This document shows positions 11,412 to 25,740 of a DNA stretch of 64,000 nt, piece after piece. Position 1 is the first letter of the stretch. Each line of letters starts with the position of its first letter. Origin of the DNA: a virus; IMG/VR virus record IMGVR_UViG_3300025806_000014, positions 1 to 64,000 of that record; one strand, given 5' to 3'. The translations under genes and the position numbers were made by a program. The notes under the pieces were generated by a model, which worked only from the letters and a program-made list of their open reading frames with translations, did not search any database and was not told where the DNA came from.

Positions 11412-11424
11412 TGTTTTATTTATC
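11412..11424 (-). promoter_or_regulatory. Weak candidate late-promoter element
   Basis: The minus strand reads GATAAATAAAACAAAG, 17-28 nt before the ATG at 11395. It is a looser match to the AATATATAA element seen elsewhere, in the right position for the fibre operon. Confidence 0.25.
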
Positions 11425-11815
11425 AACCCTTCATGATATTTAAAAACTTGTCAAATGATACTAGGTGCTTTTTCTTCTTTTTCTTTTTCTTCTTTTTTAT
11501 AGGCTCCAATAAATCACCGCTTCCGGTTTGTTGGCTACTAAAAGAATTTGCAGAACCTGGATTTCCAGGAAGTGTAGCATTACCCATACTCTGAACATTC
11601 ATGTTCGGATTAAGGTTTACCGTACCGGACTCGTTTTCTCCTATCTTGTTAGGTATTTCTTTTTCGTCAGTTTTAACAAAATCTTCTAATGTTTTAACTG
11701 GCAATTTTGACAACTCTTTAACCTCATCTGAAACATCAGAGGATTTAAGTTCTCCTTTCTTATATTGTAATGCTAATGCAAAAAATCTTCTTTGCGCTTT
11801 TGATTGAGCTGGCAT
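11423..11815 (-). CDS. Small basic DUF3008-like protein with deca-lysine run
   Basis: A 130-residue protein. The N-terminus M-P-A-Q-S-K-A-Q-R-R-F-F-A-L-A resembles the short phage/bacterial family DUF3008 (recalled by eye, not searched). The middle is polar and probably disordered. Residues 106-115 are ten consecutive lysines encoded by mixed AAA/AAG codons (11468-11497). They are followed by a C-terminal V-S-F-D-K-F-L-N segment that resembles the capsid-targeting-like motif of other proteins here. Its ATG overlaps the stop of the upstream nucleotidyltransferase gene (TAATG), implying translational coupling. The lysine run could bind DNA and neutralise its charge, but this is inference. Function is unknown. 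Confidence 0.6.
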   Translation of the reverse strand: MPAQSKAQRRFFALALQYKKGELKSSDVSDEVKELSKLPVKTLEDFVKTDEKEIPNKIGENESGTVNLNPNMNVQSMGNATLPGNPGSANSFSSQQTGSGDLLEPIKKKKKKKKKKHLVSFDKFLNIMKG

Positions 11816-13143
11816 TATTTAATATTCTTTTTTAAGAATGTTGTACAAAAGTTTAATAATTCTTTTCTTGCTGGAGCAATGTCACTCTTTTCTGTTGCAG
11901 GTCCACTTTTCCATTCTATCCAACCTTCTACTATTTCTTCTAATCCTTCTTCAAGACCACGCATAAGTTCGATATACTCTTCATTAAGTTTACTTTCATT
12001 ATAACTAACGATATCAGAATATTTAATTTCATGTTCTCCACCGTCTTGGTCTAATGCAAAAATAGTTTTATCTCCCCACATTGAATCATTATCATCATTA
12101 CCATTACCAAATGCATAAATGACATATTCTTCACCATTACCTAGTTGAATCATACCATCATCTTTTTTCATTTTCTTCATTAATGACTTCTTGTTGAATT
12201 TTGCTTCATTAACACTAAAGTCTGTTAGTGATTTTAAATTTTTCATATCTGTATTTTCTTTTATTGGTTGCATTATAGTTTGTAATGGTTTATAAAACTT
12301 ATGTATACTTTTAGGAGTCATTTTCTTAAAAGACTTTTCATCATCTATCTTTAAGGCATTCCTAACTTTAGATGCTGATATATTTTCTTCACCTCTTTTT
12401 ATTTCAAATCCTTTAAAGCTTGGATCTACTCCTAGATCATCTCTATATGATTGTTTATTAATCATAGCACCATAAGATTTCTTTCTATCAGTACCATAAC
12501 CCCACATCATAGGTTCGTATGTTGGTCTTGCTGCTGCAAACATTGTATCAATTGCTCCATTAGGAACTACAAAGCTCGCTTCTAAAAATGGATATTGCTT
12601 TTTCATTTTAGAAAACATAGCTTGTTGCATATCTTCATCAAATGGTCTTTTCTCTGGATCAGCTTTACCACCTCTTACCATATAAACAACAACAGGTAAT
12701 CCATTTTCTTTATACATTTTTTCAAATACTTTAACATGCCCTAATGTAAAGGGCTGGAATCTACCAACAAACATATTTACTGGTTTTTTACCTCTTTCTT
12801 TATGAGGTACATTTAAAGCTTCATTAAGTACAGTAGGAGTGGTTCTATTTTTTACTCTTTGTCCATAAGGAGAAAGTGAAAATGTTTTTATTCCTGCTTG
12901 ATCTTCACTAATATTAAATAAAGTTTTATTTCTACCTAACCATCTTTTATTAGCCTGGAGCTCAGTAAGAATTTTAGACATTTCCTCTTCAGTAATATGA
13001 CCGTCTGAAATAGCATCTAAAATTACACTTCTGATTCTAGCATTTGTAGATACATTCTTAGCAGGATATGCTTCTGTATATCTTCTTTTCACTATAATCT
13101 TCTTTTCATTTAAGAAATTATTTAAATCATTGATGTTTTCCAT
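11815..13143 (-). CDS. NMNAT/cytidylyltransferase-like nucleotidyltransferase with packaging-type motifs
   Basis: A 442-residue protein. G-R-F-Q-P-F-T-L-G-H (residues 127-136) matches the (H/T)xGH ATP-binding signature of the NMN adenylyltransferase/cytidylyltransferase superfamily. I-S-A-S-K-V-R (255-261) matches its C-terminal ISxTxxR motif. The domain therefore spans about 120-290 and should transfer a nucleotidyl group; NMN adenylation to NAD is the best guess. The N-terminus contains D-L-N-N-F-L-N-E, and a perfect T4-type prohead-protease site L-N-E|A lies at 108/109, just before the catalytic domain. A second M-K-N-L-x-x-L-T-D-F-S-V-N-E-A block lies at 300-314, just after it. The C-terminal 130 residues are unassigned. 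Capsid packaging and cleavage are inferred, and the substrate is unverified. Confidence 0.75.
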   Translation of the reverse strand: MENINDLNNFLNEKKIIVKRRYTEAYPAKNVSTNARIRSVILDAISDGHITEEEMSKILTELQANKRWLGRNKTLFNISEDQAGIKTFSLSPYGQRVKNRTTPTVLNEALNVPHKERGKKPVNMFVGRFQPFTLGHVKVFEKMYKENGLPVVVYMVRGGKADPEKRPFDEDMQQAMFSKMKKQYPFLEASFVVPNGAIDTMFAAARPTYEPMMWGYGTDRKKSYGAMINKQSYRDDLGVDPSFKGFEIKRGEENISASKVRNALKIDDEKSFKKMTPKSIHKFYKPLQTIMQPIKENTDMKNLKSLTDFSVNEAKFNKKSLMKKMKKDDGMIQLGNGEEYVIYAFGNGNDDNDSMWGDKTIFALDQDGGEHEIKYSDIVSYNESKLNEEYIELMRGLEEGLEEIVEGWIEWKSGPATEKSDIAPARKELLNFCTTFLKKNIK

Positions 13144-13154
13144 ACCTTATATAT

Positions 13155-15983
13155 TTACTTTACCATTTTGATTCCCATCATAGATGAAAAAGGATTCCAC
13201 ACCTGACCCTTTTGTTGAAACTTAAAGTTAGCACTACTAAACTTTTTAGTTTTAAATATAAATGCACCTGCTTTAACTTTAGTATCTAAATATACCTGTT
13301 TAACATCAGTTACCTTTTGTGTAAGCTGAGTAAGTACATCAGAATATTTTTCATTTAATGCATTTGCAGTTTCTACCATAATAGGATAGAAAATCATTCC
13401 TACTCTATTAGAATCATTTTTTTCCATTCTCTCCTTATATTCTTTTGCATATTTAGCCGCATCAATTTTACCTCTCCATGCTCCAGTTTTTTCTGCTAGC
13501 GTTTTTATAAATGATTCAAATTTATTTTGGTCTTCTTTAAATAATTCATCTAAAAATTTAATCAAGGCTTCTCTTGTTACAGATTTCTGATTTTGCTTAG
13601 CTTGCTGTAAAACATATGAATACCCTGATCCTTGGTTAGGTCCTAGTATATCAGCAGCTAAATTCATTACTTTATTATATGTTGTTGAATTTCTATATGT
13701 ATCTCCTGTTAATTCATATGGGTTTAGCCATACCTTAACTACATCTTCATAAAATGTTGTTTGATCTACATCTAACATAAGGCCATCATTTCTTTTAGCA
13801 TTATCAATCATTTTCATTATTGAAGATCCGCTCGGTGTACCCCCGCCGCCTGCCTTAGAAGAAACTTTATATTGATCAAATTCAAAATCAACTAATGCTG
13901 CATTTGAATTCTGAGGATATGCTAAACCTTCTCCCGTATCCTTAATTATATTAAACATCATTAATGCACCTAACACTTCACCAAAGTCATTAGAAAAGTT
14001 AGCAATAGATACTTGATCTATTCCATCAAAGAAAGGAGCACCAACTTTATATACTATAGGAGTTCCACTAGAAGCATAGACTTCAAAATCCGTAAAGGTG
14101 CCAACTTTATTTTTTAATACTATTTGCATAGAATCTTTAATGAATTGTTTATAATTGTCAGGATAAGACGTGTTATCTATAAACTGATTTACTTTAGTAA
14201 CAACTGCTACTCCCGTTTTATATGTAGTGCTTGCAAGATCCATTGCATCAGGAGTTAAATCTTTACCTTTTATTACTGCTGCTTCACCTGTCTTTGCACT
14301 TACTTTATAACGGTTAGTTAGAAAAATAGTATCTCCTCTTTTAAAGTCTTGCCCTAATATTTGTTTATTAGCCTTTAATATTATTTTATAAGTATGAAAT
14401 TGACCAGAAAAAGTTTTGCCAACATCTTTATGGTAATGGCCGTTAGGAAAGCCTTCCATCTTATATGCAGATGAAGGTACTTTTAAACTCTTTAAATATT
14501 TCTGAATGTTTTCTTCGGCTGTACCATCATTTGCTCCAAAATTAGCTCTTACATATTCTGGGCTATATTTAGCACCTGCAGAATCTTTTCTTGTTTTAGG
14601 AAAAGTTTTTTCATAATGCTTTAACCAATTGGCCTGCCTTTCTTTTACGTTAGGCTGTTTCTTTGCTTCATTTAAAACATCAACCTTTCCTAAATTAATA
14701 AAATTATTATAATTAAGAACCCTTTCTTCTACAACTAATTCTTCTAGATCTTTATGATTAACTTCTTCAGCTACTTTATTATTTAAGTATTCTCCAAATG
14801 TTGTAAATTCTTTAGAAGTTTCTTTATTAATGCTATCACTTATTTTAGAAACCATTTTATTAAAATCATCAATTACAGATGCTGTCATTACTGCGCCTAT
14901 TCTTTTAGGATTTCTTTTCTTTCTTAAAGATCCTAACATTATTTTATATAAGTTCTTTAATGAATCTGATTTTTGTAAAATTTCTTTAGTCCTACCATTT
15001 TTAATTAAATCTAAATTTACATCAAACTCAGGACCTTTTGCAAAATCAGCTTTTTGAATATCTAATTTTTGCAAATCAGCTCCTCTCTTAGTAGTATAAT
15101 CATTAAATAAGTTGTTTATTAATTCAATGTATCTTTCTTGTGGTGTGTTCATTAGCAATTCACCTGCTCTTAAACCTCTTTCTTCTATAAAAGCTAAAAT
15201 ATCTAATAAAAGAATTTCATTAATATCAGCAGGAGCTCTTCTTAAATCTACAGGCTCCTTATCTTTCATTAACATCTGAGTATAAGGATCAATCATTTTA
15301 GCTGTAAATGTTTGATTAGTACCTGGTCTGTAAAATTTAAAGATAATAGAATCAATAGGTTTATCTAAATCATTTTGTAAAGTAGTTTTATCGATAGTAG
15401 GATTTAAACAACCGATTAAATATTTTGCAAAAGAACTTGTACCAAATACTTCCATTTGGTCTTCTCTTGGTGTAGAAAGAAATTCTCTAATCTTTCTTTT
15501 TTGTTCTTCTTTTAAATATCCGCTGAATATAGGAATAAGTGGAGTAACTTGAAATGCAGAAGCCCAGTCTCTTAATACTCTAGGATCTTCAATTACTTTA
15601 GCAATTTTACCTTTAGAGTTCTTTACTTGGATATGAGTTAATATTAAATTATTATCAGGAAGATTATCATATTTAATAGCTCCTGGTTGATTATGAACAA
15701 AGTACTGAAAACAAAATCTCCAATGATCTGGTAAATCTTGTATATGCCCTTCTGTTTGTTTAAGTATGTATTGGATTGCCGGTTCATAATACATCATTAG
15801 TGTTCGGTCCACTATATTGATAGGCATTTTGCTATTGCCTTTAAAAAATTGTATTTGGTCTCCATGCTTCTCAAAAGCAAAAGACGATCCGGATAGTTTT
15901 TCGGTCACTAGCAAATAATCTTTAAATAGATCATTTACGAATTGTTGCCCTACTTCTTTATATATGTTTGTTAACTCTTTCAT
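13155..15983 (-). CDS. Large two-part protein: RNA-ligase-like N-terminus fused to unknown C-terminal domain
   Basis: A 942-residue protein. T-E-K-L-S-G-S-S-F (residues 27-35) resembles motif I of Rnl2-type RNA ligases (KxHG/KxDG, Lys29 as adenylated nucleophile). Possible motif III is at about 88-106 (F-Q-Y-F then a Y-D pair). Motifs IV/V may be D-S-I-I-F-K (211-216) and T-A-K-M (227-230), although the usual EG before motif IV is missing. Residues about 422-440 read L-N-Y-N-N-F-I-N ending in L-N-E|A, like an internal copy of the capsid-targeting/cleavage module, so cleavage could separate two products. The C-terminal half has a V-S-S-K-A-G-G-G-G segment preceded by acidic residues. That is only faintly reminiscent of PD-(D/E)xK nucleases. 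Ligase-fold membership is moderate and activity is untested. Confidence 0.6.
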   Translation of the reverse strand: MKELTNIYKEVGQQFVNDLFKDYLLVTEKLSGSSFAFEKHGDQIQFFKGNSKMPINIVDRTLMMYYEPAIQYILKQTEGHIQDLPDHWRFCFQYFVHNQPGAIKYDNLPDNNLILTHIQVKNSKGKIAKVIEDPRVLRDWASAFQVTPLIPIFSGYLKEEQKRKIREFLSTPREDQMEVFGTSSFAKYLIGCLNPTIDKTTLQNDLDKPIDSIIFKFYRPGTNQTFTAKMIDPYTQMLMKDKEPVDLRRAPADINEILLLDILAFIEERGLRAGELLMNTPQERYIELINNLFNDYTTKRGADLQKLDIQKADFAKGPEFDVNLDLIKNGRTKEILQKSDSLKNLYKIMLGSLRKKRNPKRIGAVMTASVIDDFNKMVSKISDSINKETSKEFTTFGEYLNNKVAEEVNHKDLEELVVEERVLNYNNFINLGKVDVLNEAKKQPNVKERQANWLKHYEKTFPKTRKDSAGAKYSPEYVRANFGANDGTAEENIQKYLKSLKVPSSAYKMEGFPNGHYHKDVGKTFSGQFHTYKIILKANKQILGQDFKRGDTIFLTNRYKVSAKTGEAAVIKGKDLTPDAMDLASTTYKTGVAVVTKVNQFIDNTSYPDNYKQFIKDSMQIVLKNKVGTFTDFEVYASSGTPIVYKVGAPFFDGIDQVSIANFSNDFGEVLGALMMFNIIKDTGEGLAYPQNSNAALVDFEFDQYKVSSKAGGGGTPSGSSIMKMIDNAKRNDGLMLDVDQTTFYEDVVKVWLNPYELTGDTYRNSTTYNKVMNLAADILGPNQGSGYSYVLQQAKQNQKSVTREALIKFLDELFKEDQNKFESFIKTLAEKTGAWRGKIDAAKYAKEYKERMEKNDSNRVGMIFYPIMVETANALNEKYSDVLTQLTQKVTDVKQVYLDTKVKAGAFIFKTKKFSSANFKFQQKGQVWNPFSSMMGIKMVK

Positions 15984-16003
15984 TATTAGTTTTTAGTTAT
16001 ACC

Positions 16004-16015: not shown

Positions 16016-16032
16016 GATTTAAAGAATGTTTA

Positions 16033-16105: not shown

Positions 16106-16432
16106 TTATGATACATCCATATAATCACCGTAGTCACATACTATGCCCTTTTTCTTTAGTTCCTTGCATACCTTATCCAAATCATCAGTTTCATAATATG
16201 CAGGTACTTGGTTTTTAATACCCATTGACTTTAATAACTTATTGGTATCATCTAATCCAATTTTAGATCTTTTACTAACATTAGCGGTTTTAGCTACATC
16301 ATATAAACTAGTTCCATAAAATCTACCACCTTGCTCAGTGTAAACAAAATTTATTCCTTTTATCTTAAATGACTTACCGCTACGGTCTTTATAATTTACG
16401 GCTTCATTTATAAATTCATTAAAGTTTTTCAT
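16106..16432 (-). CDS. Small putative virion internal protein (108 aa) with capsid-targeting-like N-terminus
   Basis: A 108-residue protein beginning M-K-N-F-N-E-F-I-N-E-A. This is very close to the T4 internal-protein leader M-K-T-Y-Q-E-F-I-A-E-A, whose F-I-A-E|A bond is cut by prohead protease gp21. The equivalent bond here is I-N-E|A at 10/11. The mature part would be a small mixed-charge protein with two Cys (C-K-E-L and V-C-D-Y near the C-terminus). It starts 1 nt after the stop of the 122-residue gene and is followed by a strong terminator. The function of the mature part is unknown. The leader resemblance is seen directly; packaging is inferred. Confidence 0.65.
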   Translation of the reverse strand: MKNFNEFINEAVNYKDRSGKSFKIKGINFVYTEQGGRFYGTSLYDVAKTANVSKRSKIGLDDTNKLLKSMGIKNQVPAYYETDDLDKVCKELKKKGIVCDYGDYMDVS

Positions 16433-16433: not shown

Positions 16434-16802
16434 TTATGCTAATTTAGATTTACCATCCCATACTTTAACAATATAATCTTTACCATCTTTCTCTAAGTAG
16501 CGAGGATCTTTTTTAGTAGGTCTCATTAGTAAGCCGTATGAGTTTGAGCCTCTTCCATGTTTACCTATGTTTTTATCATGTCCTAATCTTTTCATAAAAT
16601 CAGATCCACCAGAAAAGTAAGAGGAGAAATAACCTCTGTTGCTTCTGTCATTAGGATCCAAGCCTTTATGCTTAACAATTAAGTTTTGTAAATCTTTCCA
16701 TTTAGATTTGCCTTTCTTTTCGGCATAATCCAATACCATCTTTTTAATAGTGTCCATATCTTTTGATTCATTAAGGGATTCAAATGTGTGTAAATAGTCC
16801 AT
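16434..16802 (-). CDS. Small basic protein (122 aa) with possible prohead-protease site
   Basis: A 122-residue protein starting M-D-Y-L-H-T-F-E-S-L-N-E-S, giving an L-N-E|S site at 12/13 that fits the T4 gp21 consensus (I/L)-x-E|(A/G/S). The rest is basic and Gly/Ser/Tyr-rich, with a helical stretch at about 16-48 (K-W-K-D-L-Q-N-L) and a N-R-G-Y-F-S-S-Y-F segment. An AT-rich 78-nt leader holding a TATATAAT element precedes the gene. The family was not recognised. A DNA-associated internal protein is plausible from its charge and leader, but this is inference. Confidence 0.55.
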   Translation of the reverse strand: MDYLHTFESLNESKDMDTIKKMVLDYAEKKGKSKWKDLQNLIVKHKGLDPNDRSNRGYFSSYFSGGSDFMKRLGHDKNIGKHGRGSNSYGLLMRPTKKDPRYLEKDGKDYIVKVWDGKSKLA

Positions 16803-16880: not shown

Positions 16881-18152
16881 TTATCTACCAAATTTAATTA
16901 TGCCCATTAATTGATTAATCGCAGCGAAGGTACCAGTTAACTTATAAATCTTACCTTTATATTTAAATACAATACCTTCAGTTGGAAATATAGATTCAAT
17001 ACCACCAATACGGCTTAGTCTTGCAAGCTCAGCTTCAACCTTTTTAATTTGTTCTACCCCACCTGTCTTTTTAATCTTACTTGCTTGAGTTTCTATTTCT
17101 TTTCTTAGTCTTTGTGCTTCACCAGATGGATTAGCAGCTAAGAAGTTAGAAGCATTCTTCATAATGATAGAACCGAGCTCTAAAAATAAATCTTCAAAAG
17201 GTCTAATGTTTTCTTTATATTTTTTACCTACATCCTCTTTATCAAACTTTTTAACTAATGCAGCTTCTTTAGGTCCAACTTGTTTTGCTAAAGATCTCAT
17301 GTTTAAACTCTTCTTGTCGCCGTATGCCCATCTTTTAAGTAAACCTTCTTTAACATCTTGAGATAATGTTGGAAATTCTTTATCTATTAATTCTCTCCAC
17401 CACATTTCATGGTATCTTGAAACTTCATCACCGTCGTTTAAACCATATCTTTTTTCTAGAGCATTGACTTGATTAATAAACTTTTTCTTATTTGCAGTAA
17501 AATCTAAATCTCTTTGTAATTGAATTACTTTTGGAGGTATAATTTTAAATGTTTTACCAATATCAGATTTTACCTTTTGAAGTATACTTGTTATTTCTTT
17601 GGCAGGTTTATTGTTTGTACCTATGATATTACCTTTACCGTCTGTTTCTTTTATTCCATGAAATTGTATAACATCAGTATCATAGTGGATAACATTTGGA
17701 TTCAATGAATAGATTAATTCCATATTCATAAAATCTTTTCCATTCTTAAAATACTTTTCTTGATCTGCTGGTGAAAGCTTTCTTAATAGCTTATCTAAAT
17801 CCCTAGCAGCAAAGATATAAGTATCTTCTACTAATTTTGATGCATGGCCTGTAAACATACTAACAATTCCGTTAAGATCTATTGGGTTTGCCATTTGTCC
17901 TTTATTTCTAGCAAATTTTACTTTGCCATCCTGCATAGTTACAAATAGGTTTTGCCCATCGGTCTTTTCAGTAGGATCTTCTTCAAAGTTTAGTTGGCCT
18001 CTAAGACCAGCATCAACCATTGCTTTAAAATCACCAAAGGTTAAATCTTTATCATCAAATGGATGTTGCATATGACCAGCAGCACCGCCTTCAAACAAAA
18101 ATGGCTGACTTTTGTCAGTCAGCCATTCTTCAAACAATTTTATATGTTTCAT
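16881..18152 (-). CDS. DNA/RNA ligase-like covalent nucleotidyltransferase with capsid-targeting-like N-terminus
   Basis: I choose the ATG at 18152 (423 aa). An upstream in-frame ATG at 18230 would overlap the preceding gene by 65 nt, and M-K-H-I-K-L-F-E-E-W-L matches the leader type of neighbouring proteins. Ligase-superfamily motifs are visible in order. Motif I is E-K-T-D-G (Lys63 nucleophile). R-N-K-G is at 82-85, and a motif III-like M-N-M-E-L-I-Y is at 142-148. Motif IV is E-G-I-V-F-K (392-397) and motif V is K-I-Y-K-L (401-405). It should form an enzyme-AMP (or GMP) intermediate and join or cap a polynucleotide end; substrate unknown. An F-L-F-E|G-G-A-A-G site (21/22) fits prohead-protease cleavage just before the enzyme domain, suggesting packaging in the virion. 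Confidence 0.7.
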   Translation of the reverse strand: MKHIKLFEEWLTDKSQPFLFEGGAAGHMQHPFDDKDLTFGDFKAMVDAGLRGQLNFEEDPTEKTDGQNLFVTMQDGKVKFARNKGQMANPIDLNGIVSMFTGHASKLVEDTYIFAARDLDKLLRKLSPADQEKYFKNGKDFMNMELIYSLNPNVIHYDTDVIQFHGIKETDGKGNIIGTNNKPAKEITSILQKVKSDIGKTFKIIPPKVIQLQRDLDFTANKKKFINQVNALEKRYGLNDGDEVSRYHEMWWRELIDKEFPTLSQDVKEGLLKRWAYGDKKSLNMRSLAKQVGPKEAALVKKFDKEDVGKKYKENIRPFEDLFLELGSIIMKNASNFLAANPSGEAQRLRKEIETQASKIKKTGGVEQIKKVEAELARLSRIGGIESIFPTEGIVFKYKGKIYKLTGTFAAINQLMGIIKFGR

Positions 18153-18165: not shown

Positions 18166-19950
18166 TTATGATCCCATAGTAGATTGTAAAGCTCCAACCA
18201 TTGCTCCATAGTCTTCACCATACTTATCAATTAAACCATCAGCAGTTTCAGTTGCTTTAGTTTCATCAAAGTCATCTCCGAATGCATCTTTTAACATTTT
18301 CATTGCATATTCTTTAAATTCATCAGCAGATTTAATTTCAGCTTCATTTACTTTACCTAATTTATTAGCAGCAAGCTTTCTGAATTTTTCAGCAATTGAA
18401 TCATCAGGTAATACTTCTTCTTCTTCCTTTACAATTTCAGTACCATCAGCTTTATCATCTGCTTCACCTTTAACTACATCAGTAATTTTTTGATCAGGAG
18501 TAATTAGTTCTTTACCTTTACCTTCAATAGATTTAGGCTTACCCATATCCATCATATCTCCAGCAATACCTGCAGCAGTTTCTGGTCCATCACCTTTAAT
18601 TACAGGAATAGCTATTCCATCATCTCCAGCTTCTTCATCTTTAATTTCATCACCTTCAACTTTAGTAATTACTTCACCTACAGCTTCTTCAACAGATTCA
18701 TCCTTTTCGTCTTCATCTTCGAAATCTTCACCGTCGTGAGTTTTAGATTTATCACCTTTATTTCCACCTAGTACAACATCATCATACTTTTCATTTGCAG
18801 ATTCGTCTTTTTCATCCTCATCTTCAAAATCTTCGCCATCATGTGTTTTAGATTTATCACCTTTATTTCCACCTAGTACAACATCATCGTACTTTTCATT
18901 TGCAGATTCGTCTTTCTTATCATCTTCATCCTCATCTTCAAAATCTTCGCCATCATGTGTTTTAGATTTATCGCCTTTATCTCCACCGAATACAACTCTA
19001 TCATATGCTTCATTAACAAATGTTGAAAAAGACATTATTTTAGATTCGTTCTTTTCAGCATCTTCCTCTTCTTCTTTATCGTATTCAACATCTTTCTTTA
19101 AAGCATCGATTTGTTTATCATCAGATTTAACAGCTCCTTTATAATGGTCTGCTTTTTCTTTATCATCTTCAGAATCAACTTTCTTATCGCCTTTATCTTC
19201 TAATTCATCACCTTTCTTTTCATCATCTTTACCTTCTTCTTCATCATCTTCATTGACTTTTGCTTCAGCAAGAGGATCAGCAGACGCTGCTACAGGAACA
19301 GCATAATCTTCTGGCTCTTCATCATCATCATGATAAGAAATGTTTTTATTAATAGTTTCTTCTTTTTCTTTAATGAAATCTTCGAAAGCCATAATTCTTC
19401 TAGTAGCTTTTGGAGTTTCTTCTTCTTCTGAAGCTACATCAACACCGTCCTCATCTTCAACCTCATCGGCTTCAGCTGGAACTTCTGCTGTAATTTCTTG
19501 TTCATCAGAAACTTCTTCACCTTCTTTATCTTCTAAAGATTTAGTAGAACCAATTGCATTAACCTCATCTTCTATTTCTTTAGCTTTTCCAGATAATTCT
19601 TTTACTTCATCTTCAGCAACCTCAGAATCAGAATCAACAACTTCAGCGTCGCCTTCTTTATCTTCAGTACCTTCTAGTGATTTTGCTTTACCTTTGGCAT
19701 TCATTTCATCTTCAATATCTTCGGCTCTATCTTCTTCGATTTCATCCTCAGATATATCGTTACTTTTTGCAATTGTCTTAGACATTGCTTCGAGTTTTGA
19801 AAGAAGATCTTTCTCCTTTTTTAACTCTTCTATACTGTCAAAACCAATCTTTTTGATCAATTCATCAACAGCTTCTTTTGTTACTTTTGCTGACTCAGTG
19901 ATCGGTTGATCTTTTGCAGTCATTGCAGAAAACTTTTTGATTGACTTCAT
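18166..19950 (-). CDS. Highly acidic repeat protein, putative prohead core or internal virion protein
   Basis: A 594-residue protein dominated by Glu, Asp, Lys and Ser, largely low-complexity and probably disordered. The N-terminus M-K-S-I-K-K-F-S-A-M-T ends in P-I-T-E|S (19/20), a prohead-protease-type site. Internal modules I-M-A-F-E-D-F-I-K-E and I-M-S-F-S-T-F-V-N-E-A repeat the targeting-like pattern. Residues about 312-418 hold three 35-residue tandem copies containing Y-D-D-V-V-L-G-G. The last 90 residues look helical and folded. T4 core proteins (gp22, gp67, gp68) are similarly acidic and cut to peptides, so a scaffold/core or DNA-compaction role is plausible, but it is not adjacent to capsid genes here. 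It starts the block containing the ligase-like gene, 13 nt before it. Confidence 0.6.
   Translation of the reverse strand: MKSIKKFSAMTAKDQPITESAKVTKEAVDELIKKIGFDSIEELKKEKDLLSKLEAMSKTIAKSNDISEDEIEEDRAEDIEDEMNAKGKAKSLEGTEDKEGDAEVVDSDSEVAEDEVKELSGKAKEIEDEVNAIGSTKSLEDKEGEEVSDEQEITAEVPAEADEVEDEDGVDVASEEEETPKATRRIMAFEDFIKEKEETINKNISYHDDDEEPEDYAVPVAASADPLAEAKVNEDDEEEGKDDEKKGDELEDKGDKKVDSEDDKEKADHYKGAVKSDDKQIDALKKDVEYDKEEEEDAEKNESKIMSFSTFVNEAYDRVVFGGDKGDKSKTHDGEDFEDEDEDDKKDESANEKYDDVVLGGNKGDKSKTHDGEDFEDEDEKDESANEKYDDVVLGGNKGDKSKTHDGEDFEDEDEKDESVEEAVGEVITKVEGDEIKDEEAGDDGIAIPVIKGDGPETAAGIAGDMMDMGKPKSIEGKGKELITPDQKITDVVKGEADDKADGTEIVKEEEEVLPDDSIAEKFRKLAANKLGKVNEAEIKSADEFKEYAMKMLKDAFGDDFDETKATETADGLIDKYGEDYGAMVGALQSTMGS
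18695..19015 (-). repeat. Three 105-nt tandem repeats in the acidic protein gene
   Basis: Copies begin near 18695, 18800 and 18905, a 105-nt (35-codon) period. The third copy, nearest the N-terminus, has an extra Asp/Glu/Lys stretch and starts from the F-V-N-E-A module. The first two are almost identical. Confidence 0.8.
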
Positions 19951-20006: not shown

Positions 20007-21512
20007 TTAGAATCTTATGTTCTGAACTTCGAATGGAAACTTTTCTTCTTTATATATTGTTCGCCTAGCAATACCGTGGCGGTAGATATAATTAACCCAA
20101 TCATGGTCTTCGGCTTTATATCTAAAATCATCTATAAAATCATAGATTTTTACAACATCTTTCGATGCATGCTTTCTTAATCCTCTACCAATACTTTGTC
20201 TGATAATTACTTCAGATTTAAAACTTTCGGTAAAAAAGATATTATGTATATTTTTAATTGAAATACCAGTTGAAAAGGTACCATAAGATGCTACAATAAT
20301 AACATCATCATTTTTTTCCATTCTGCTTTTAAACTCTTCTCTTATATCTACGTTAACAGAGCCGTCTACATAGTAAACCTTCTTGTCTGTTATATGCCTT
20401 AATTTATTATATAGTTTTTCACCGTATGCAATCTTATGAAATAGTACTAATGAATTAGATGTAGATTTTTTAATTACTTGACAAACAAAATCTAATCTCT
20501 TTTCACTTTGATTTATAAAATTTTGTTCTAATCCAAATAATCTTTGTCTATCTTGTGGATTTTTAGATAAAAATGAAAATGATTCCTTTTGTTCGTCTGT
20601 TGCATAATCCATATGAAGTTGCATAACTTTACAACTGGCAATAAAACCTTCTTGTTGTAATTGATTTGCTTTAACTTGAGTAACCAATGGGCCCATGGCA
20701 GACATTAAACTTAATCTATTAACAGTTCCTTTCTTAGGTATGGTTCCACTTAAACCAAATCTAAAATCACAATGCCAACACTTATCCATAATCTTTTGAA
20801 TAGAATTTGCTTTTGCTTTATGAGTTTCATCTACAAATACAGCATCAAATTGGCTAAAGTATTCCTCGTCCTTTTTAACTAAAGATTGATAAGTACCAAT
20901 AACTAGATTAGAACTTTTTCTTATTTTTACACCGGCATAAATTTGTTGAGTCTTTAAAGGAACTCCGCATTTATTATATTCATCAAAGTCACCAGTAGCC
21001 TGTAAGACTAGATTTACATTAGGGACAATCATTAATATCTTTTTCTTATTTAGCTTGTCCATAAGATAAGCAACTACCATAAAAGATATTAGTGTTTTAC
21101 CAGCAGATGTTGCTAATTCCGCTAAACACCTTCTATACTTTAATATTTTAAAAGCTGCATCTATTTGGTATTCTCTAGGTTTAAATTCTGGTTGCTTTTT
21201 AAATATTTTAGTAACCCATTTCCTAAACTCGTCTTCTTTGATTTCAGTATCAAATATATTGGTTATATTATTTAAGGTAACAGGAAAGTCATAATCTTTA
21301 CAGATATCTAATATTTCTTTCCATAGACCTGCAGGTATTTTATTTCTTTTTACAAATGATACATTACCATCCCATACTCTTTTTTTAACTAAAGGGTGAA
21401 AGCGCCAACCTTCAATCTTTTTAGTTAAACTACTTTTTAGTTGTTCATACTCTAATTCAGTACAAGCATCAATAACTAAAAACTTTTTATTTTCCGAGAG
21501 GGATAATTCCAT
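20007..21512 (-). CDS. uvsW: UvsW-like recombination DNA helicase
   Basis: A 501-residue superfamily-2 helicase, almost the length of T4 UvsW (503). The Walker A motif is A-T-S-A-G-K-T (134-140), Walker B is D-E-T-H (228-231), motif III is S-G-T (255-257) and motif VI is Q-S-I-G-R-G-L-R-K (439-447). About 110 residues before the Q-motif region (P-R-E-Y-Q-I-D-A-A) match the UvsW N-terminal extension. UvsW unwinds R-loops and branched recombination intermediates and helps switch T4 from origin- to recombination-dependent replication. Its ATG overlaps the stop of the UvsY-like gene (TAATG), and the uvsW/uvsY neighbourhood is also found in T4. Confidence 0.9.
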   Translation of the reverse strand: MELSLSENKKFLVIDACTELEYEQLKSSLTKKIEGWRFHPLVKKRVWDGNVSFVKRNKIPAGLWKEILDICKDYDFPVTLNNITNIFDTEIKEDEFRKWVTKIFKKQPEFKPREYQIDAAFKILKYRRCLAELATSAGKTLISFMVVAYLMDKLNKKKILMIVPNVNLVLQATGDFDEYNKCGVPLKTQQIYAGVKIRKSSNLVIGTYQSLVKKDEEYFSQFDAVFVDETHKAKANSIQKIMDKCWHCDFRFGLSGTIPKKGTVNRLSLMSAMGPLVTQVKANQLQQEGFIASCKVMQLHMDYATDEQKESFSFLSKNPQDRQRLFGLEQNFINQSEKRLDFVCQVIKKSTSNSLVLFHKIAYGEKLYNKLRHITDKKVYYVDGSVNVDIREEFKSRMEKNDDVIIVASYGTFSTGISIKNIHNIFFTESFKSEVIIRQSIGRGLRKHASKDVVKIYDFIDDFRYKAEDHDWVNYIYRHGIARRTIYKEEKFPFEVQNIRF

Positions 21513-21961
21513 TAGTATTCTTTATCGTCTAAACTTATTCTATTACGAATAGCAAATGCTAAGTTATCACATGTCTTTATGCATTCTTGGTAATAGTCCA
21601 TATGAGATTGTAGCATTTCCATTTGTGTTCTTAAATGAGATAAGTCAGCTTTAATAAAAGCAACCTTTTCACCACTTGTTAATTTAACATCATAATCAAT
21701 TGAATATTCTCTATACTTGATTTTATAGTATCTGTCATATGCACCTTGTCTTTTTTGTTTTGTAGTTTTAAAATCAGTAATTTTATCCAATAGGATTTGT
21801 CTATAAGATAACATATTTACTTGGCACTCGGATAAATTGCGAACTTCTTTTAGTAAACCAACCAAGTGGCTTATCTTTTCTTTCCAATCATCTCTATCTT
21901 TAGCTAATCTTTTTGCTAATTCTTCATTAGCCTCACCTGTTGCCATGTCATTATACTCCAT
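21512..21961 (-). CDS. UvsY-like recombination mediator (probable)
   Basis: A 149-residue, mostly helical protein, near the size of T4 UvsY (137). A Lys/Arg/Tyr-rich central region is followed by a C-terminal stretch L-A-F-A-I-R-N-R-I that resembles the UvsY C-terminus (G-F-A-I-K-H-I). UvsY loads the UvsX recombinase onto gp32-coated single-stranded DNA. Support comes from size, the C-terminal resemblance and its place directly before uvsW, as in T4 where the two genes are close neighbours. Sequence identity is low, so a different small helical replication protein remains possible. Confidence 0.55.
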   Translation of the reverse strand: MEYNDMATGEANEELAKRLAKDRDDWKEKISHLVGLLKEVRNLSECQVNMLSYRQILLDKITDFKTTKQKRQGAYDRYYKIKYREYSIDYDVKLTSGEKVAFIKADLSHLRTQMEMLQSHMDYYQECIKTCDNLAFAIRNRISLDDKEY

Positions 21962-22183
21962 TTAAAATATACCTTTATCTTTATTAATCTTTTTAAAACC
22001 CTTTACTTTAGGCTGAAACTTCTTTTTAGGTGCTGGTATAGAAAAATTAGTTTTAACTTCATCTAATTCAGATTTACCAAATGTAGAAAAAAGTTTTAGT
22101 CTTTTACTATTACTTTCTAAATCTTTATAAAAGTCATCTATTTCTTCATTCACAAAATTATTATAATTTTTTAAACTCATCAT
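21962..22183 (-). CDS. Small basic protein (73 aa) with targeting-like N-terminus
   Basis: A 73-residue protein beginning M-M-S-L-K-N-Y-N-N-F-V-N-E-E, the same pattern as the M-K-N-F-N-E-F-I-N-E-A leader found elsewhere, though with Val at the P3 position and Glu after the cut site. The C-terminal half is very basic (P-K-K-K-F-Q-P-K-V-K-G-F-K-K). Its ATG overlaps the primase stop by 4 nt (ATGA). It could be a small DNA-binding internal protein; function unknown. Confidence 0.5.
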   Translation of the reverse strand: MMSLKNYNNFVNEEIDDFYKDLESNSKRLKLFSTFGKSELDEVKTNFSIPAPKKKFQPKVKGFKKINKDKGIF

Positions 22184-23253
22184 ATAAAAATAATATCTAA
22201 TGAATCCTTTGTAAAATATTTATCCAGGTCACCTAAGCACCCAGATCTATTACTGTATTCCCATTTAACTAAATCATTTAAATCTTTAACCTTTCTTGAT
22301 GGAATGTCAAAATCCTTTAAAAACTTATCCCACATAAATACAGTTTGACCACCCTTAAGTTTTTCAATCATTCTTGTTTTACCTTCTAAATCATTATCAA
22401 AGAAATATCTTGCTGTAGGTATTTCATTAAATTCAATAATTTGTTTTTTAACTCCAGTTAAACCAATAGAGTTATTCATAAACATTGCATCAATAGGACC
22501 TTCAAATATTGAAAAATCTCGAGACATATCAACAGTTAAGATTCCAAATAACATTGATATCTTATTTAGGTTATCTAATTCTTCTTCGGTAACTTTTAAT
22601 GGTAATTTTAATCTGTCATAAATTCTTTCTATATTCCAAGTTTTATATTTAGGACCACCACTACCACCTAAGTCTCTAGTTTGGAATCCTAATATTTTAC
22701 CTTCAGGTGTTAAATTAAAAACATATAGTTCTCTACGCCTTGGGTCAAAACCAAACCTTTCAGTTTTATGATGGAGAAGCCTACTCTTTAAATAAGGATA
22801 TGCTTGGTATGTTAAAGTATTAATTGGATATACATTAAAACCTAAAGCTATTTCATCAAAAGTTAATGCTAATTCTTTTGCTTTATCAAAAAGATAAAAA
22901 TCTAAATTTTCTCCTAATGAAAAATGTTTACGATTTTCCTTAATATAATTAATAACATTAATTCTATCATCGCCTTCGAAGTTTTCATTATGTTCTGCTA
23001 AGAATACATCTAAGGAAGCATGAGCTGAACAATTATAACAATGAAAGTATAAATCATTCCAATAAATATTTCCTCTCTTTTTTCTTGGTGTATCATGAGA
23101 ATCACCACAGTAAGGGCATGCAAAATTTAACCTACCTTTACTCTCCAATATTCTTCTCTTCTCTGGATGAGTATGATTAGTATGAAGAACTCGGACTACC
23201 TTATCGATAATCCGAGCTTTCATTTCAGAAGATATTATTACTTCCTCTGCCAT
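22180..23253 (-). CDS. DNA primase, T4 gp61-like (zinc ribbon + TOPRIM)
   Basis: A 357-residue protein. The N-terminal zinc ribbon has C46-x2-C49 and C72-x2-C75 (C-P-Y-C-G and C-Y-N-C-S). The TOPRIM catalytic core shows E-G-P-I-D-A (Glu251, Asp255) and D-N-D (286-288), the acidic residues that bind metal. T4 gp61 (342 aa) has the same order and makes RNA primers with helicase gp41 at the fork. The gene lies 5 nt after gp32 and overlaps the next gene by 4 nt, in a compact replication operon. The gp41 helicase is not in the window. Confidence 0.88.
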   Translation of the reverse strand: MAEEVIISSEMKARIIDKVVRVLHTNHTHPEKRRILESKGRLNFACPYCGDSHDTPRKKRGNIYWNDLYFHCYNCSAHASLDVFLAEHNENFEGDDRINVINYIKENRKHFSLGENLDFYLFDKAKELALTFDEIALGFNVYPINTLTYQAYPYLKSRLLHHKTERFGFDPRRRELYVFNLTPEGKILGFQTRDLGGSGGPKYKTWNIERIYDRLKLPLKVTEEELDNLNKISMLFGILTVDMSRDFSIFEGPIDAMFMNNSIGLTGVKKQIIEFNEIPTARYFFDNDLEGKTRMIEKLKGGQTVFMWDKFLKDFDIPSRKVKDLNDLVKWEYSNRSGCLGDLDKYFTKDSLDIIFI

Positions 23254-23258
23254 ACTTA

Positions 23259-24182
23259 TTAAAGATCTAAACCATTAATGAAATCATCAAAGTCATCTTT
23301 CTTTTCTTCACCTTTTACAGGTTCAGCCTTAGGAGTTTCCTTTGTTTCAGTTGTTGCTTTAGTTGCAGCAGCTTCAGTAGCTTGTGTATTTACTGGTGCC
23401 GGTTTTGATCTTGTGATGTTTTGAATTGAATCACCTGGTGATGTGAATTGAGATAATACATTCATTACCTTTCCTCTTACTATATCATCCCATGCTTTAT
23501 AACCCCATGTTGATAAATCTGGTGCAGTACCTAACAACTCTAAAATTGCCTTACGGCTTTCATCACTGTTTGTAACCGCTTCACCTTCAATTGTCATTGG
23601 AGATTTATTTCCGTGGAATTTACTAGAATCATAATTTGGAAAACCACCTTTCTTTGAAATTACTAATTCAAAATTCTTGCCTTCAAAAGGATCGAATACT
23701 TGAGTAGGTTCATCAAATTGTGGATTCAGTTCTTCATCAATTTTAGTTTTGATTTTATAACCAAACTTCATGATTTTAACCTGCCCTTCAAGATCTCTGT
23801 TTTGTGGATCTTTTATGATTTGTACCAATGCATAGAATACTTCTCTACGCTTTAAACCTTCTGACATCTTTTTGTCTACAGCAGATTCAGAGTTTCTTAG
23901 TTTAAAGAACATATCCTGTACAGGACATTTTTCTCCAACCGTTGATGGTGAATCAGCATAAAAGCCGTTTCCCTCTCTGTCTTCTAACCAGTAGACATAC
24001 TTTCTTTCAAATGGTTTTCTTGGGTTTTTAGCATTAGGTAGAAACCTAATTAAAGAACGGTAAGTTCCGTCCTGTCCTTGATCTGGTTTAGGTGAATAAA
24101 GATCACTCCCTGCGGAAGATGGTCTTTCACCAGTGTCTAAATCTTTTACACTTACGTTAAAAATGTCGAATTCATTTGCCAT
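23259..24182 (-). CDS. 32: Single-stranded DNA-binding protein, T4 gp32-like
   Basis: A 307-residue protein, almost the length of T4 gp32 (301). The N-terminal third carries the gp32-type core (L-I-R-F-L-P-N, Y-V-Y-W, E-K-C-P-V-Q-D) and the C-terminus is an Ala/Thr/Lys linker ending in an acidic tail (D-D-F-D-D-F-I-N-G-L-D-L), the usual site for partner proteins. T4 gp32 binds zinc through one His and three Cys. Here I find only one Cys (Cys86) in that region, so the zinc site appears lost. It coats single-stranded DNA and organises primase, UvsY and polymerase. A 166-nt leader with an inverted repeat precedes it. Confidence 0.88.
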   Translation of the reverse strand: MANEFDIFNVSVKDLDTGERPSSAGSDLYSPKPDQGQDGTYRSLIRFLPNAKNPRKPFERKYVYWLEDREGNGFYADSPSTVGEKCPVQDMFFKLRNSESAVDKKMSEGLKRREVFYALVQIIKDPQNRDLEGQVKIMKFGYKIKTKIDEELNPQFDEPTQVFDPFEGKNFELVISKKGGFPNYDSSKFHGNKSPMTIEGEAVTNSDESRKAILELLGTAPDLSTWGYKAWDDIVRGKVMNVLSQFTSPGDSIQNITRSKPAPVNTQATEAAATKATTETKETPKAEPVKGEEKKDDFDDFINGLDL

Positions 24183-24196
24183 GTTAATTGCCTTTT

Positions 24197-24224
24197 TTTG
24201 TTATTATTAATTTATGATAACAAA
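24197..24224 (-). promoter_or_regulatory. Inverted repeat in the gp32 leader
   Basis: TTTGTTAT and ATAACAAA form a perfect 8-bp inverted repeat around a 12-nt AT-rich loop, 15-42 nt before the gp32 ATG. T4 gp32 represses its own translation through a folded leader next to an unstructured AT-rich start region, so this hairpin is a candidate operator. It could also act as a weak terminator. Confidence 0.35.
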
Positions 24225-24317
24225 CTCCGTATCTAAACGCCTTTTAATTTTTTATTGCCTATTTACTTCGCCTTGTTATCGCCTTTTAAAAAGTACCAAT
24301 ACTTTATTGATTCCTTT

Positions 24318-24331
24318 GTTTATTATATATC
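24318..24331 (-). promoter_or_regulatory. Candidate promoter upstream of gp32
   Basis: The minus strand reads GATATATAATAAACAAAG about 135-150 nt before the gp32 ATG, directly after the co-chaperonin gene. It matches the AATATATAA-type element except for the first base and would give a long structured leader. Confidence 0.35.
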
Positions 24332-24348
24332 CCCTAAGTCAGTTTGTT

Positions 24349-24633
24349 TCAGACTATTTTAACATTTTTATCTATTATTGCAGTTACATCACGTTCTCTT
24401 ATACTTAATACTGTTTCTCCTTTATATTTAAATTCACTACCAGCTAAATCATGAAAAAGTATTTTAATTCCTATTTTAAAATCTTTATCTTCTACCCCAT
24501 CTCCTACTCCAGTGATTGTACCTGAATACGGAGGTGCAAACATCCCTTCTTTTTTTAGTAAAATTATACTGCCTTGCTTCTCTGGTTGCTCATCTTTTTT
24601 TAAAAATATTCTATTTCCTAAAGGTTTTATCAT
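24349..24633 (-). CDS. GroES/gp31-like co-chaperonin
   Basis: A 94-residue protein with GroES features. It has the opening M-I-K-P-L-G-N-R-I-F-L-K, a loop region at about 16-35, G-x-I-T-G-V-G-D-G, and a C-terminal E-R-D-V-T-A-I-I-D strand. GroES (97 aa) and T4 gp31 (111 aa) cap the host GroEL. T4 needs gp31 to fold the major capsid protein gp23. The segment corresponding to the mobile loop (I-I-L-L-K-K-E-G) lies where GroEL contact is expected. It sits between the RuvC-like gene and gp32 in the replication block. It is closer to bacterial GroES than to gp31 in sequence. Confidence 0.8.
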   Translation of the reverse strand: MIKPLGNRIFLKKDEQPEKQGSIILLKKEGMFAPPYSGTITGVGDGVEDKDFKIGIKILFHDLAGSEFKYKGETVLSIRERDVTAIIDKNVKIV

Positions 24634-24718
24634 TTTATTTTAATTTTTTTTATAGAAAGCTGAAACAATGTTAACATGTTGCAATATAATTTTTAACTAT
24701 TCAGAGTAAGAAAAGTAT

Positions 24719-25378
24719 CTAATTGTTAGCCTTCAGGGCTTTAAGTATAAAGTAGGCATCAACGATGTCATCGATAGGTTTAGGTATTTTAATGCTGAAG
24801 TCTTTTCCTTGAGTCCATTTCCAAAGTTTAGTGCTCCTTAAGTTCTTATCATTAAGGACATCATCTTGGAATGCTTTAGCCATATAATGTTTATTTGCAT
24901 TTCCTTTCCCAGCAAGTTTCTTAACATGAGATGGTTGAAAGACAGATAAATTTTCTATAGAATACTTATCTATTAATTCTTTTCTTAAAAAAGTATTGTA
25001 CTGAATAATGTCTATAAATGAATTACCCTTGGAGCCATAAGAAAATCCTTCTAATGCAACTGCTACCTTATCACCTTCAAATAAGGTTGAAAATATATTA
25101 ACCATAAGTGAGCTAATATTTCCTGCATCCTCTAACTTCTGTCTCTCTCTAGGTAAAAACTCTTTACTTGTAACTTCTCTATTATAAGGAAATCCTAATA
25201 AAGCATTATCATCCATTAATTCTTTGTGTACACTGAATGCTTTAGGTATTTTTCTACCTTCTTCATCCCATATACGATTTCCGTAATTAAAAAAAGTTAT
25301 AAAGTGATATTTGCCATCGGCTGTTTCAACGCAGGCACCAGGACTATTTAATGAAAAGTCAATTCCTATGTGAATCAT
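24719..25378 (-). CDS. RuvC-like Holliday-junction resolvase
   Basis: A 219-residue protein with an RNase H-like resolvase pattern. The first acidic residue is Asp7 in H-I-G-I-D-F-S-L, the second is Glu110 in V-A-L-E-G-F-S-Y-G, and Asp203, Asp204 and Asp207 lie in P-I-D-D-I-V-D-A-Y. A Q-P-S-H-V-K-K-L-A-G-K-G-N-A-N-K stretch (148-163) matches the basic segment that precedes the last acidic pair in RuvC proteins. It would cut four-way junctions before packaging, replacing T4 endonuclease VII. The length is above bacterial RuvC (about 173) because of an insertion at about 25-100. It ends 85 nt before the co-chaperonin gene. Confidence 0.75.
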   Translation of the reverse strand: MIHIGIDFSLNSPGACVETADGKYHFITFFNYGNRIWDEEGRKIPKAFSVHKELMDDNALLGFPYNREVTSKEFLPRERQKLEDAGNISSLMVNIFSTLFEGDKVAVALEGFSYGSKGNSFIDIIQYNTFLRKELIDKYSIENLSVFQPSHVKKLAGKGNANKHYMAKAFQDDVLNDKNLRSTKLWKWTQGKDFSIKIPKPIDDIVDAYFILKALKANN

Positions 25379-25383
25379 TCTAA

Positions 25384-25740
25384 TTATATTCTCTTGCCGA
25401 TAACTGCACCTAGCGCAGCACCTACAAGACGTGAGGTTAATAAATCATACAGAACACCTTTAGTAACACCTAATACTTTAGCCACAGCTTTACCTATAGT
25501 TTTTCCTAATGCAAAACCAGTTAAACCACCAAATATACTTCCTAATAAACCTTCATTGATTATCTCCTCAACACAGTCTTCTAAATTCTTACCTTCTTTT
25601 TGAGCTTCAAGAATTCGTTCTACTGCCATATCAATTGCAGCATCTTGTTCTTCTGTTAAATCATGAGATTCATTTAATAAATCTTCTATGTTTAAAGAAT
25701 CTTCTTTATTTTCAATTAGGTAATCTTTAAATGTTTTCAT
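25384..25740 (-). CDS. Glycine-zipper membrane-active protein with prohead-protease-type sites
   Basis: A 118-residue protein beginning M-K-T-F-K-D-Y-L-I-E, again like the T4 internal-protein leader. Residues 11-63 are acidic and helical and contain L-N-E|S (24/25), I-L-E|A (45/46) and I-N-E|G (63/64), all fitting (I/L)-x-E|(A/G/S). Residues 64-118 are hydrophobic and Gly-rich (F-G-G-L-T-G-F-A-L-G-K-T-I-G, then A-A-L-G-A-V-I-G-K), the pattern of glycine-zipper membrane segments. Cleavage at 63/64 would release a 55-residue membrane-active peptide. A role in DNA passage across the host inner membrane is possible but is inference. It starts 25 nt after the tube gene and has its own AATATATAA element. 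Confidence 0.6.
   Translation of the reverse strand: MKTFKDYLIENKEDSLNIEDLLNESHDLTEEQDAAIDMAVERILEAQKEGKNLEDCVEEIINEGLLGSIFGGLTGFALGKTIGKAVAKVLGVTKGVLYDLLTSRLVGAALGAVIGKRI

Follow-up and report, generated by a model that had tools for sequence, protein, structure and literature searches.

We suggest that the genes between positions 11423 and 25740 come from a divergent T4-like phage and encode internal head proteins, which would be targeted to the head by leaders, cut by a gp21-type protease and released with the DNA at infection. We put the probability of this reading at about 70%. The window, 64,000 nt of IMGVR_UViG_3300025806_000014, is part of an 83.6-kb T4-like phage fragment. Sequence comparison assigns the tag system to a widespread marine phage family, where it is carried by NMNAT-like proteins, RNA-ligase-like proteins and swappable domains. 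Packaging of the tagged proteins is likely, and their cleavage we infer to be probable. The T4-type tag on the enzymes and swappable domains therefore makes their entry into the host together with the DNA probable.

Table 1. Features of the block (slash, predicted cut)
Feature	Position	Strand	Basis or detail
130-aa DUF3008-type protein	11423..11815	-	PF11450 E 6.7e-5, just under cut-off
442-aa NMNAT-like protein	11815..13143	-	PF01467 E 7e-7
Second internal leader-like module MKNLKSLTDFSVNEA, site MKNLKSLTDFSVNE/A, in NMNAT-like protein	12202..12246	-	C-terminus behind it differs or is absent in relatives
Predicted cut site PTVLNE/A (TVLNE/AL), upstream of NMNAT domain	12817..12837	-	sequence comparison
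942-aa protein	13155..15983	-	conserved ligase-like N-domain 1-430, cut site, exchangeable C-domain 440-942
Linker LNYNNFINLGKVDVLNE/A (site NNFINLGKVDVLNE/A): leader-like segment, predicted cut, domain-swap junction	14664..14717	-	
108-aa internal-protein candidate, MKNFNEFINE/A, E at 10 (T4 register)	16106..16432	-	
122-aa internal-protein candidate, MDYLHTFESLNE/S	16434..16802	-	leader counts
RNA-ligase-like nucleotidyltransferase, 423 aa	16881..18152	-	motifs
Leader MKHIKLFEEWLTDKSQPFLFE, predicted cut E/GG	18090..18152	-	28 distinct leaders
594-aa acidic protein	18166..19950	-	leader MKSIKKFSAMTAKDQPITE/S; internal modules MAFEDFIKE, MSFSTFVNE/A
73-aa protein, leader-like N-terminus MMSLKNYNNFVNEE	21962..22183	-	
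118-aa protein	25384..25740	-	leader MKTFKDYLIE/N; internal LLNE/S, IINE/G (...EEIINE/G), then glycine-zipper-like tail

Leader modules, predicted cut sites and the prohead protease

All seven proteins that the sequence-only reading had named as bearing modules or sites were found in the sequence. The 73-aa protein is an extra fit beyond these seven. The bare (I/L)xE(A/G/S) site occurs 12 times in the seven proteins versus 5.9 ± 2.4 times in shuffles; because this is near chance, the count was dropped as evidence. The module anchored at the N-terminus is in excess, with 4 versus 0.64 in this record, 8 versus 0.89 in G004, 11 versus 1.08 in a 181-kb relative and 8 versus 1.78 in T4, the positive control, where the hits include two internal-protein genes and gene 24. 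By the same N-terminal count, a general leader excess was not found in phage Mel-JY01. The module is present in at least half of the members of 8 out of 126 families, with 0.23 expected when N-termini are permuted; in 1000 permutations eight families were never reached. Chance probably accounts for three of these families (two of tail-fibre type, and MNTFDKIK).

Candidate leaders include MKNFNEFINEA and MKHIKLFEEWLTDKSQPFLFEGG, and leader-type N-termini occur on unrelated proteins. The 108-aa and 118-aa proteins have the leader in T4 register 10; it is found in 70% of the members of the 118-aa family, and the 108-aa protein weakly matches phrog_2667, 'internal head protein' (E 0.028). Longer leader variants are seen on other proteins, and the tag pattern reaches well past 11423-25740.

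The predicted cut sites match the gp21 rule (L/I)-x-E and lie right at domain borders. P3 and P1 are fixed and P2 is free (13 and 14 distinct sites compared); judged from such alignments, the (L/I)-x-E site is maintained by selection. What stands of the leader and cleavage module first proposed is thus the tags themselves and the border sites, conserved amid varying surroundings, but not the bare site on its own. A gp21-type (S77) prohead protease, which the sequence-only reading had named as a check, is present in the 181-kb near relative and in three other long relatives (profile search, over cut-off in 4/4); it retains both the His block and the Ser block of T4 gp21. The record covers only part of its genome and lacks the head genes, and the protease lies outside its 83.6 kb. 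In the relatives the S77 protease carries a fused extension, itself rich in sites, which in G001 form tandem Y-x-x-Y-(L/I/V)-x-E repeats.

Could the amphipathic N-terminal module be a general localisation tag, one that sends proteins to a membrane or a replication compartment, for instance, rather than to the head? Leader-like N-termini are also frequent in phages of 634-735 kb, and leader-like helices occur at C-termini as well, both of which would fit such a tag. However, the exact match to the T4 register and to the gp21 site rule, together with the presence of a gp21 homologue in all long relatives examined, makes this explanation very improbable.

The NMNAT-like protein and its virion homologues

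The 442-aa protein scores 29.9 bits against PF01467 (cut-off 21), and its motifs GRFQPFTLGH and IS-x-x-x-V-R are present in 41/41 relatives. By sequence, it has the (H/T)xGH and IS-x-x-x-x-R-type motifs of the NMN adenylyltransferase/cytidylyltransferase-like superfamily. Its N-terminal leader is MENINDLNNFLNE; the next residue is K, not A/G/S, which counts against the main reading. The predicted site before the NMNAT domain has L/I/V at P3, E at P1 and A/G at P1' in 14/14 distinct sites, and it is retained though the upstream partner domain differs among relatives. Behind the second internal leader the C-terminus is exchangeable. In the adjoining DUF3008-type protein, a segment, NPNMNVQSMGNATLPGNPGS, is common to the N-arm of the G001 major capsid protein and co-varies by clade, and the C-terminal end forms a leader-like helix, HLVSFDKFLNIM.

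Virion proteomics has detected NMNAT-like proteins in S-SCSM1, S-SZBM1, S-CREM2 and S-CBWM1, and for S-SCSM1, a Synechococcus phage, both the NMNAT and the DUF3008 homologue (SSCSM1_93, with a virion-protein annotation) are on record as part of the virion. Virion presence is thus documented for homologues in other phages, and NMNAT packaging as such is not new, which amends the sequence-only reading. The S-SCSM1 leader is of textbook T4 type, MKSFLQFLKE/A.

The enzymes might instead be ordinary cytoplasmic proteins of metabolism or RNA repair during infection, with the cyanophage detections being contaminants and the leaders incidental. The S-SCSM1 authors left packaging versus co-purification open, those of S-CREM2 also warn of co-purification, and leaderless NMNAT-like proteins exist in other large phages such as 121Q (gene 418) and the Microcystis phage Mel-JY01, which encodes an NMNAT-ligase fusion and on which no literature was found. 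We nevertheless consider this unlikely, since all five NMNAT-like proteins inspected from cyanophages have a leader in the exact T4 register, as do many unrelated proteins in the present set, and since the E/GG site described below is retained while the leader around it drifts.

The RNA-ligase-like, 942-aa and acidic proteins

The RNA-ligase-like gene had been read from a TTG at 18230 (449 aa); the ATG at 18152 is the most likely start, and most relatives begin there with MKHIK/MKYIK. In this family E/GG is invariant across 28 distinct leaders. The motifs KTDG, RN, NMEL, EG-x-VF and KLTG, and with them K63-x-D-G, E145, E392-G-x-V and K404 (motifs I, III, IV and V, assigned by eye), are invariant in 22 sequences, so that by sequence all ligase-superfamily motifs appear to be retained. 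T4 RNA ligases 1 and 2 rank first in the PDB fold search, at a non-significant E of 0.4-1.2; a PDB sequence search found no ligase match. In BFVD ligases rank weakly, and the significant matches are to viral cytidyltransferase-like fusion proteins. These motifs and non-significant fold matches, weak as structural evidence, suggest an RNA-ligase-like protein. Pfam, PHROGs and PDB profile searches gave no usable family for either this or the 942-aa protein.

In the 942-aa family (I/L/V)xE is present at 23/23 distinct junctions, and directly behind the site the C-terminal domain is swapped between close relatives; E439-A440 is invariant in the 12 sequences with the same type of C-domain. At the motif-I position, aligned by eye, the N-domain has EK in the clade, EN in LR756500 and ED in the 634-735-kb phages. 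Judged from this alignment the N-domain lacks a conserved motif-I lysine and is at best a degenerate nucleotidyltransferase; therefore the three nucleotidyltransferases proposed earlier reduce to two, the NMNAT-like and 423-aa proteins, and one degenerate. Profile comparison showed no relation between the 423-aa and 942-aa families, and they are therefore not called paralogues. No Pfam identity was found for the swapped C-terminal domains, and a nuclease-like reading of the C-domain of the 942-aa protein (SSKAGxGG, by eye) found no support. Its AlphaFold model has a pTM of 0.34, and the fold search from it was uninformative.

The 594-aa acidic protein, which adjoins the enzymes in 56/56 long loci, is possibly a core or scaffold component. 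In T4, gp21 cuts gp22 and further core proteins to pieces (PMC9026906). The acidic protein might likewise be core or scaffold, as might the 942-aa N-domain; their sites would then serve core break-up, and the enzymes would be passengers without a function in the host. The acidity and internal modules of the 594-aa protein and the site-filled protease extension of the relatives agree with this, but structural passengers would not need the invariant catalytic motifs of the 423-aa and NMNAT-like proteins, and we hold it to be slightly less probable still than contamination.

Proposed delivery and known systems

We suggest the following sequence for internal head proteins. Every cargo protein, or in a fusion every domain, would bear a capsid-targeting leader M-K-x-Phi-x-x-F...(L/I)-x-E, which would bring it into the prohead core. 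There a gp21-type protease would cleave behind (L/I)-x-E, freeing the mature domain inside the head, and the mature domains would exit together with the DNA on infection. Such a cargo would comprise an NMN-adenylyltransferase-type enzyme, an RNA-ligase-like nucleotidyltransferase and small internal proteins, with residues 1-430 of the 942-aa protein as a conserved carrier for exchangeable C-terminal domains fused behind the cut site. We infer injection and a biochemical role in NAD or RNA metabolism: the enzymes would likely act ahead of any phage gene expression, NAD being rebuilt from NMN after a NAD-depleting defence or ligation, and cut RNA being sealed or adenylylated.

The set of packed enzymes proposed from the sequence gains from the tags, the protease in relatives and the virion homologues of the NMNAT-like and DUF3008-type proteins, but the picture of a single leader plus enzyme gives way, several genes being modular polyproteins. 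More tentatively, and with somewhat less than even odds, we propose a modular head-delivered payload of carrier/enzyme polyproteins, with repeated targeting and cut sites as linkers and an exchangeable C-terminal effector slot. It would be common to T4-like cyanophages, marine phages and, in part, the largest phages (up to 735 kb), and would deliver a kit for NAD repair and RNA sealing before phage expression. For the NMNAT-like proteins recurrent in cyanophage virions, the T4-type leader gives direct and testable grounds for regarding them as packaged cargo. Applied to sequence alone, the leader rule can also catalogue candidate injected proteins in hundreds of uncultured marine and huge phages. 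Should the enzymes act on entry, NAD would be restored or RNA mended ahead of transcription, with a timing advantage over NAD-depleting or tRNA-cutting defences. The swappable C-terminal slot would supply as yet uncharacterised anti-host or anti-defence domains.

With T4 IPI-IPIII and Alt the block shares the leader register (residues 4, 7, 8, 10), the (L/I)-x-E rule and a gp21-type S77 protease; unlike in T4, enzymes of NMNAT-like and RNA-ligase-like type are among the cargo, several cargo proteins are polyproteins joined by leader-like linkers and ending in C-domains that can be exchanged, and the protease of the relatives has a long extension with repeats fused to it. The 423-aa protein resembles T4 RNA ligases 1 and 2 in KxDG, the motif III E, the motif IV EG-x-V(F) and the motif V lysine, and in its first-ranked fold matches, whose sequence and fold similarity is not significant; it differs from them in the roughly 245 residues that separate motif III from motif IV and in bearing a head-packaging leader. 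The polyvalent proteins, including P1 DarA/DdrB, are described in PMC5512222 as multidomain, exchangeable, head-packaged, processed and anti-defence, a likeness that the block may share. Here, by contrast, cutting is predicted by a gp21-type protease at repeated leader-like linkers, and the passages of that source which were consulted do not name the NMNAT/RNA-ligase combination; domain swapping itself is seen, and a Pfam search found no known polyvalent domains in the swapped C-domains. Closest are the NMNAT-like/cytidylyltransferase virion proteins of T4-like cyanophages (T4-GC 190), with a related NMNAT domain, the T4-register leader in five homologues (including S-SCSM1) and a DUF3008 neighbour. 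In contrast to these, the window's clade has a KRRYTE module, followed by an internal cut site, ahead of the NMNAT domain, which is about 27-30% identical to theirs, and the gene adjoins the RNA-ligase-like and 942-aa genes.

Leader-bearing proteins and their gene block

We suggest that the leader-tagged proteins of this T4-like phage are packaged in the head, with a probability of about 0.85. The tag and site examples of the sequence-only reading were all located in the window. Bare (I/L)xE(A/G/S) sites occur in seven example proteins at only ~2 times the expected number, hence their frequency alone is a weak argument. Unlike them, the N-terminally anchored leader is strong evidence. According to the T4 rule, residues 4 and 7 target the protein, residues 8 and 10 are required for cleavage, and the cut falls behind L/I-x-E (PMC9026906). 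By this rule, leader N-termini exceed the expectation from shuffles in the near relative G001 (11 vs 1.08), in another long relative, G004 (8 vs 0.89), in the whole record (4 vs 0.64) and in T4 itself (8 vs 1.78), where the hits, assigned to genes from sequence and position, include two internal-protein genes and gene 24. The leader is carried by at least half of the members in 8 of 126 protein families, compared with 0.23 by permutation (8 was reached in 0 of 1000 runs); three of these families are probably due to chance.

The viral record is incomplete at 83,616 bases, of which the window is 64 kb and stretches L001 and L002 cover the remainder. Fibre genes of this one phage contain four collagen-like (G-x-y repeat) stretches, and since the record starts within one of them, the assembly probably broke in such a repeat. 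Neighbouring genes are T4-like (UvsW-type helicase, single-strand binding protein, tail tube). The 423-aa ligase-like protein has 271 relatives among viral contigs, the best 80 of 271 being kept (~62-100% identity). G001 (181,663 bases) also has the gene block, with a ligase-like protein ~95-97% identical to that of the window. Gene order is essentially constant across the 56 loci that span 15 kb or more: 118 aa, 73 aa, helicase, acidic protein, 423 aa, 942 aa, NMNAT, DUF3008; none of the 56 lacks the 423-aa or the 942-aa gene.

Leader genes also cluster elsewhere. Two additional G001 clusters hold ten more; one leader gene there has a SnoaL/CaMKII association-like domain (PF08332, E 3.5e-17) and one a DUF5824 domain. 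The second cluster of the record, on the strand opposite to the window block, has the leaders MSKIPEFDKFNE, MASIDLIPGFESFNVNE↓A and MISNFDSFLNE↓K (arrows mark predicted cuts). Leader-like N-termini (MKKFSQYINEQ, MLELNYNDFLNED, MVINFEEYSLNEK, MIKKFYQFINE) surround a 942-N-domain homologue in phages of 735 kb (L153) and 634 kb (L152), among the largest known. Leader-like helices are found C-terminally as well, in the window (HLVSFDKFLNIM), in far-clade ligase-NMNAT proteins (FMTFEQFVKKD) and in cyanophage S-SCSM1 (RTFKEFLEYIE), perhaps for C-terminal targeting.

Coordinates of the features discussed
Feature	Location	Strand	Stretches read
DUF3008 protein, 130 aa	window 11423-11815	-	
C-terminal leader-like helix	window 11426-11467		
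DUF3008 segment common with capsid protein	window 11552-11611		
NMNAT-like protein, 442 aa	window 11815-13143	-	
942-aa protein	window 13155-15983	-	
423-aa ligase-like protein	window 16881-18152	-	
Acidic protein, 594 aa	window 18166-19950	-	
Collagen-like stretches	window 1-6700, 7622-10255, 29738-32755; L001:3405-8324		
Second leader cluster of the record	L001:14108-15986 (record ~74.1-76.0 kb)	+	
Additional G001 leader clusters	G001:C1:72940-78051 and 92487-97259		L090, L091, L092
G001 prohead protease	G001:C1:18182-19903		
G001 major capsid protein	L088:1011-2939		
S-P4 gene preceding NMNAT-like gene	L155:282-1214		

Predicted cut sites and the prohead protease

The 423-aa family has 28 distinct leaders, 20 to 32 residues long, and in each of them (I/L/V)-x-E stands immediately before an invariant GG, with P3, P1 and P1' of the predicted site fixed and P2 free; the homologue in the huge phage LR756500 reads MKFLKSYEEFLNENLILE↓GG. 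Mel-JY01, a cultured Microcystis phage, has the site NIIAE↓GG between its NMNAT and ligase-like domains. The NMNAT-domain site (L/I/V)xE↓(A/G)L is retained with either upstream partner, the KRRYTE module of the window or the 942-type N-domain of the far clade. Residues 1-430 of the 942-aa protein are conserved, unrelated domains substitute beyond NNFINLGKV...(I/L/V)xE in close relatives, and the predicted site is present in 23 of 23 distinct junctions. Relatives of the 442-aa protein lack, or have exchanged, the C-terminus that follows its complete internal leader, MKNLKSLTDFSVNEA. Such retention of P3, P1 and P1' amid changing surroundings would be the expected trace of a protease site, and we consider cleavage at the named bonds probable.

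A gp21-like protease, proposed as a check of the packaging claim, was found in relatives: Peptidase_S77 (gp21) matches exceed the curated cut-off in all four long relatives, and the identical search recovers T4 gp21. The His and Ser blocks GEL(N/D)HP and SSRG/SSRA and the N-terminal LLI align to T4 gp21. Unlike the T4 enzyme, that of G001, G002, G003 and G004 continues into a 380-630-residue extension and looks like a protease-scaffold fusion. In G001 the extension has tandem Y(S/T)x(Y/H)(L/I/V)xE units and 23 (L/I/V)xE sites vs 9.4 in shuffles, an apparent self-cutting scaffold. The excess is clear in G004 (30 vs 16.2) and not in the extension of G002 (27 vs 23.1).

Nucleotidyltransferase-like proteins and virion composition

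The 423-aa gene most likely starts at 18152 rather than at an upstream TTG, because most relatives begin there. Ligase-superfamily motifs are in order and invariant in 22 sequences, with an unusual ~245-residue stretch separating motifs III and IV. Top PDB matches of its structure model (pLDDT 70, pTM 0.48) are T4 RNA ligase 1 and 2, at non-significant E of 0.4-1.2; in a viral library, 825-944-aa cytidyltransferase-like proteins are among the strongest matches, and the weak ones are mostly ligases. The 442-aa protein has an NMNAT/cytidylyltransferase domain (PF01467) whose two active-site motifs are found in 41 of 41 relatives. Of the three nucleotidyltransferases claimed, the NMNAT-like and ligase-like proteins keep their motifs, but in the 942-aa N-domain the motif-I lysine is not conserved across the family, and the name degenerate or carrier domain suits it better.

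T4-like cyanophages have an NMNAT-like gene (T4-GC 190), with the leader in T4 register in five of five examined: S-SM2 (MKSFFQFLSE↓A), S-SCSM1 (MKSFLQFLKE↓A), S-P4 (MKKFSAFLNE↓A), P-SSM2 (MKSFSQFLTE↓T) and S-CRM01 (MKLFNQFFKE↓A). Published virion proteomes list NMNAT-like/cytidylyltransferase proteins for S-SCSM1 (PMC9602691), S-SZBM1 (PMC9146016), and S-CREM2 and S-CBWM1 (PMC10665884). The NMNAT-like protein of S-SCSM1 has a virion-protein annotation, and SSCSM1_93 of this phage, a homologue of the window DUF3008 gene by N-terminal similarity, is likewise annotated as a virion protein. The S-SCSM1 (PMC9602691) and S-CREM2 (PMC10665884) authors state that packaging and co-purification are inseparable in their data, and no prohead protease is mentioned in the searched text on S-SCSM1. 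The leader favours packaging over co-purification.

By eye, the gene preceding the S-P4 NMNAT-like gene has ligase-like motifs (KWDGAPA...EGFVI...YKIVD), so the ligase-like/NMNAT pair may recur in cyanophages. The DUF3008 protein has a segment, NPNMNVQSMGNATLPGNPGS...GSGD, in common with the N-arm of the G001 major capsid protein, and in the far clade both proteins have an alternative version, NIGGMGxVxLP...GSGD, as if they bound one common partner.

Possible role and comparison with known systems

By analogy with T4 internal proteins and Alt, the tagged proteins would rather likely enter the host. That they restore NAD and seal RNA on entry is a tentative proposal. An economical idea is that NAD would be consumed by the ligase-like enzyme and the released NMN recycled by the NMNAT; the Mel-JY01 NMNAT-ligase fusion fits this idea and does not prove it.

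T4-type internal proteins, gp21 processing and NMNAT in virions are already known. What is new relative to the literature compared is that NMNAT-like virion proteins carry an explicit leader, that their RNA-ligase-like partner has a conserved predicted cut site, and that the polyproteins are built with C-terminal domains that can be exchanged.
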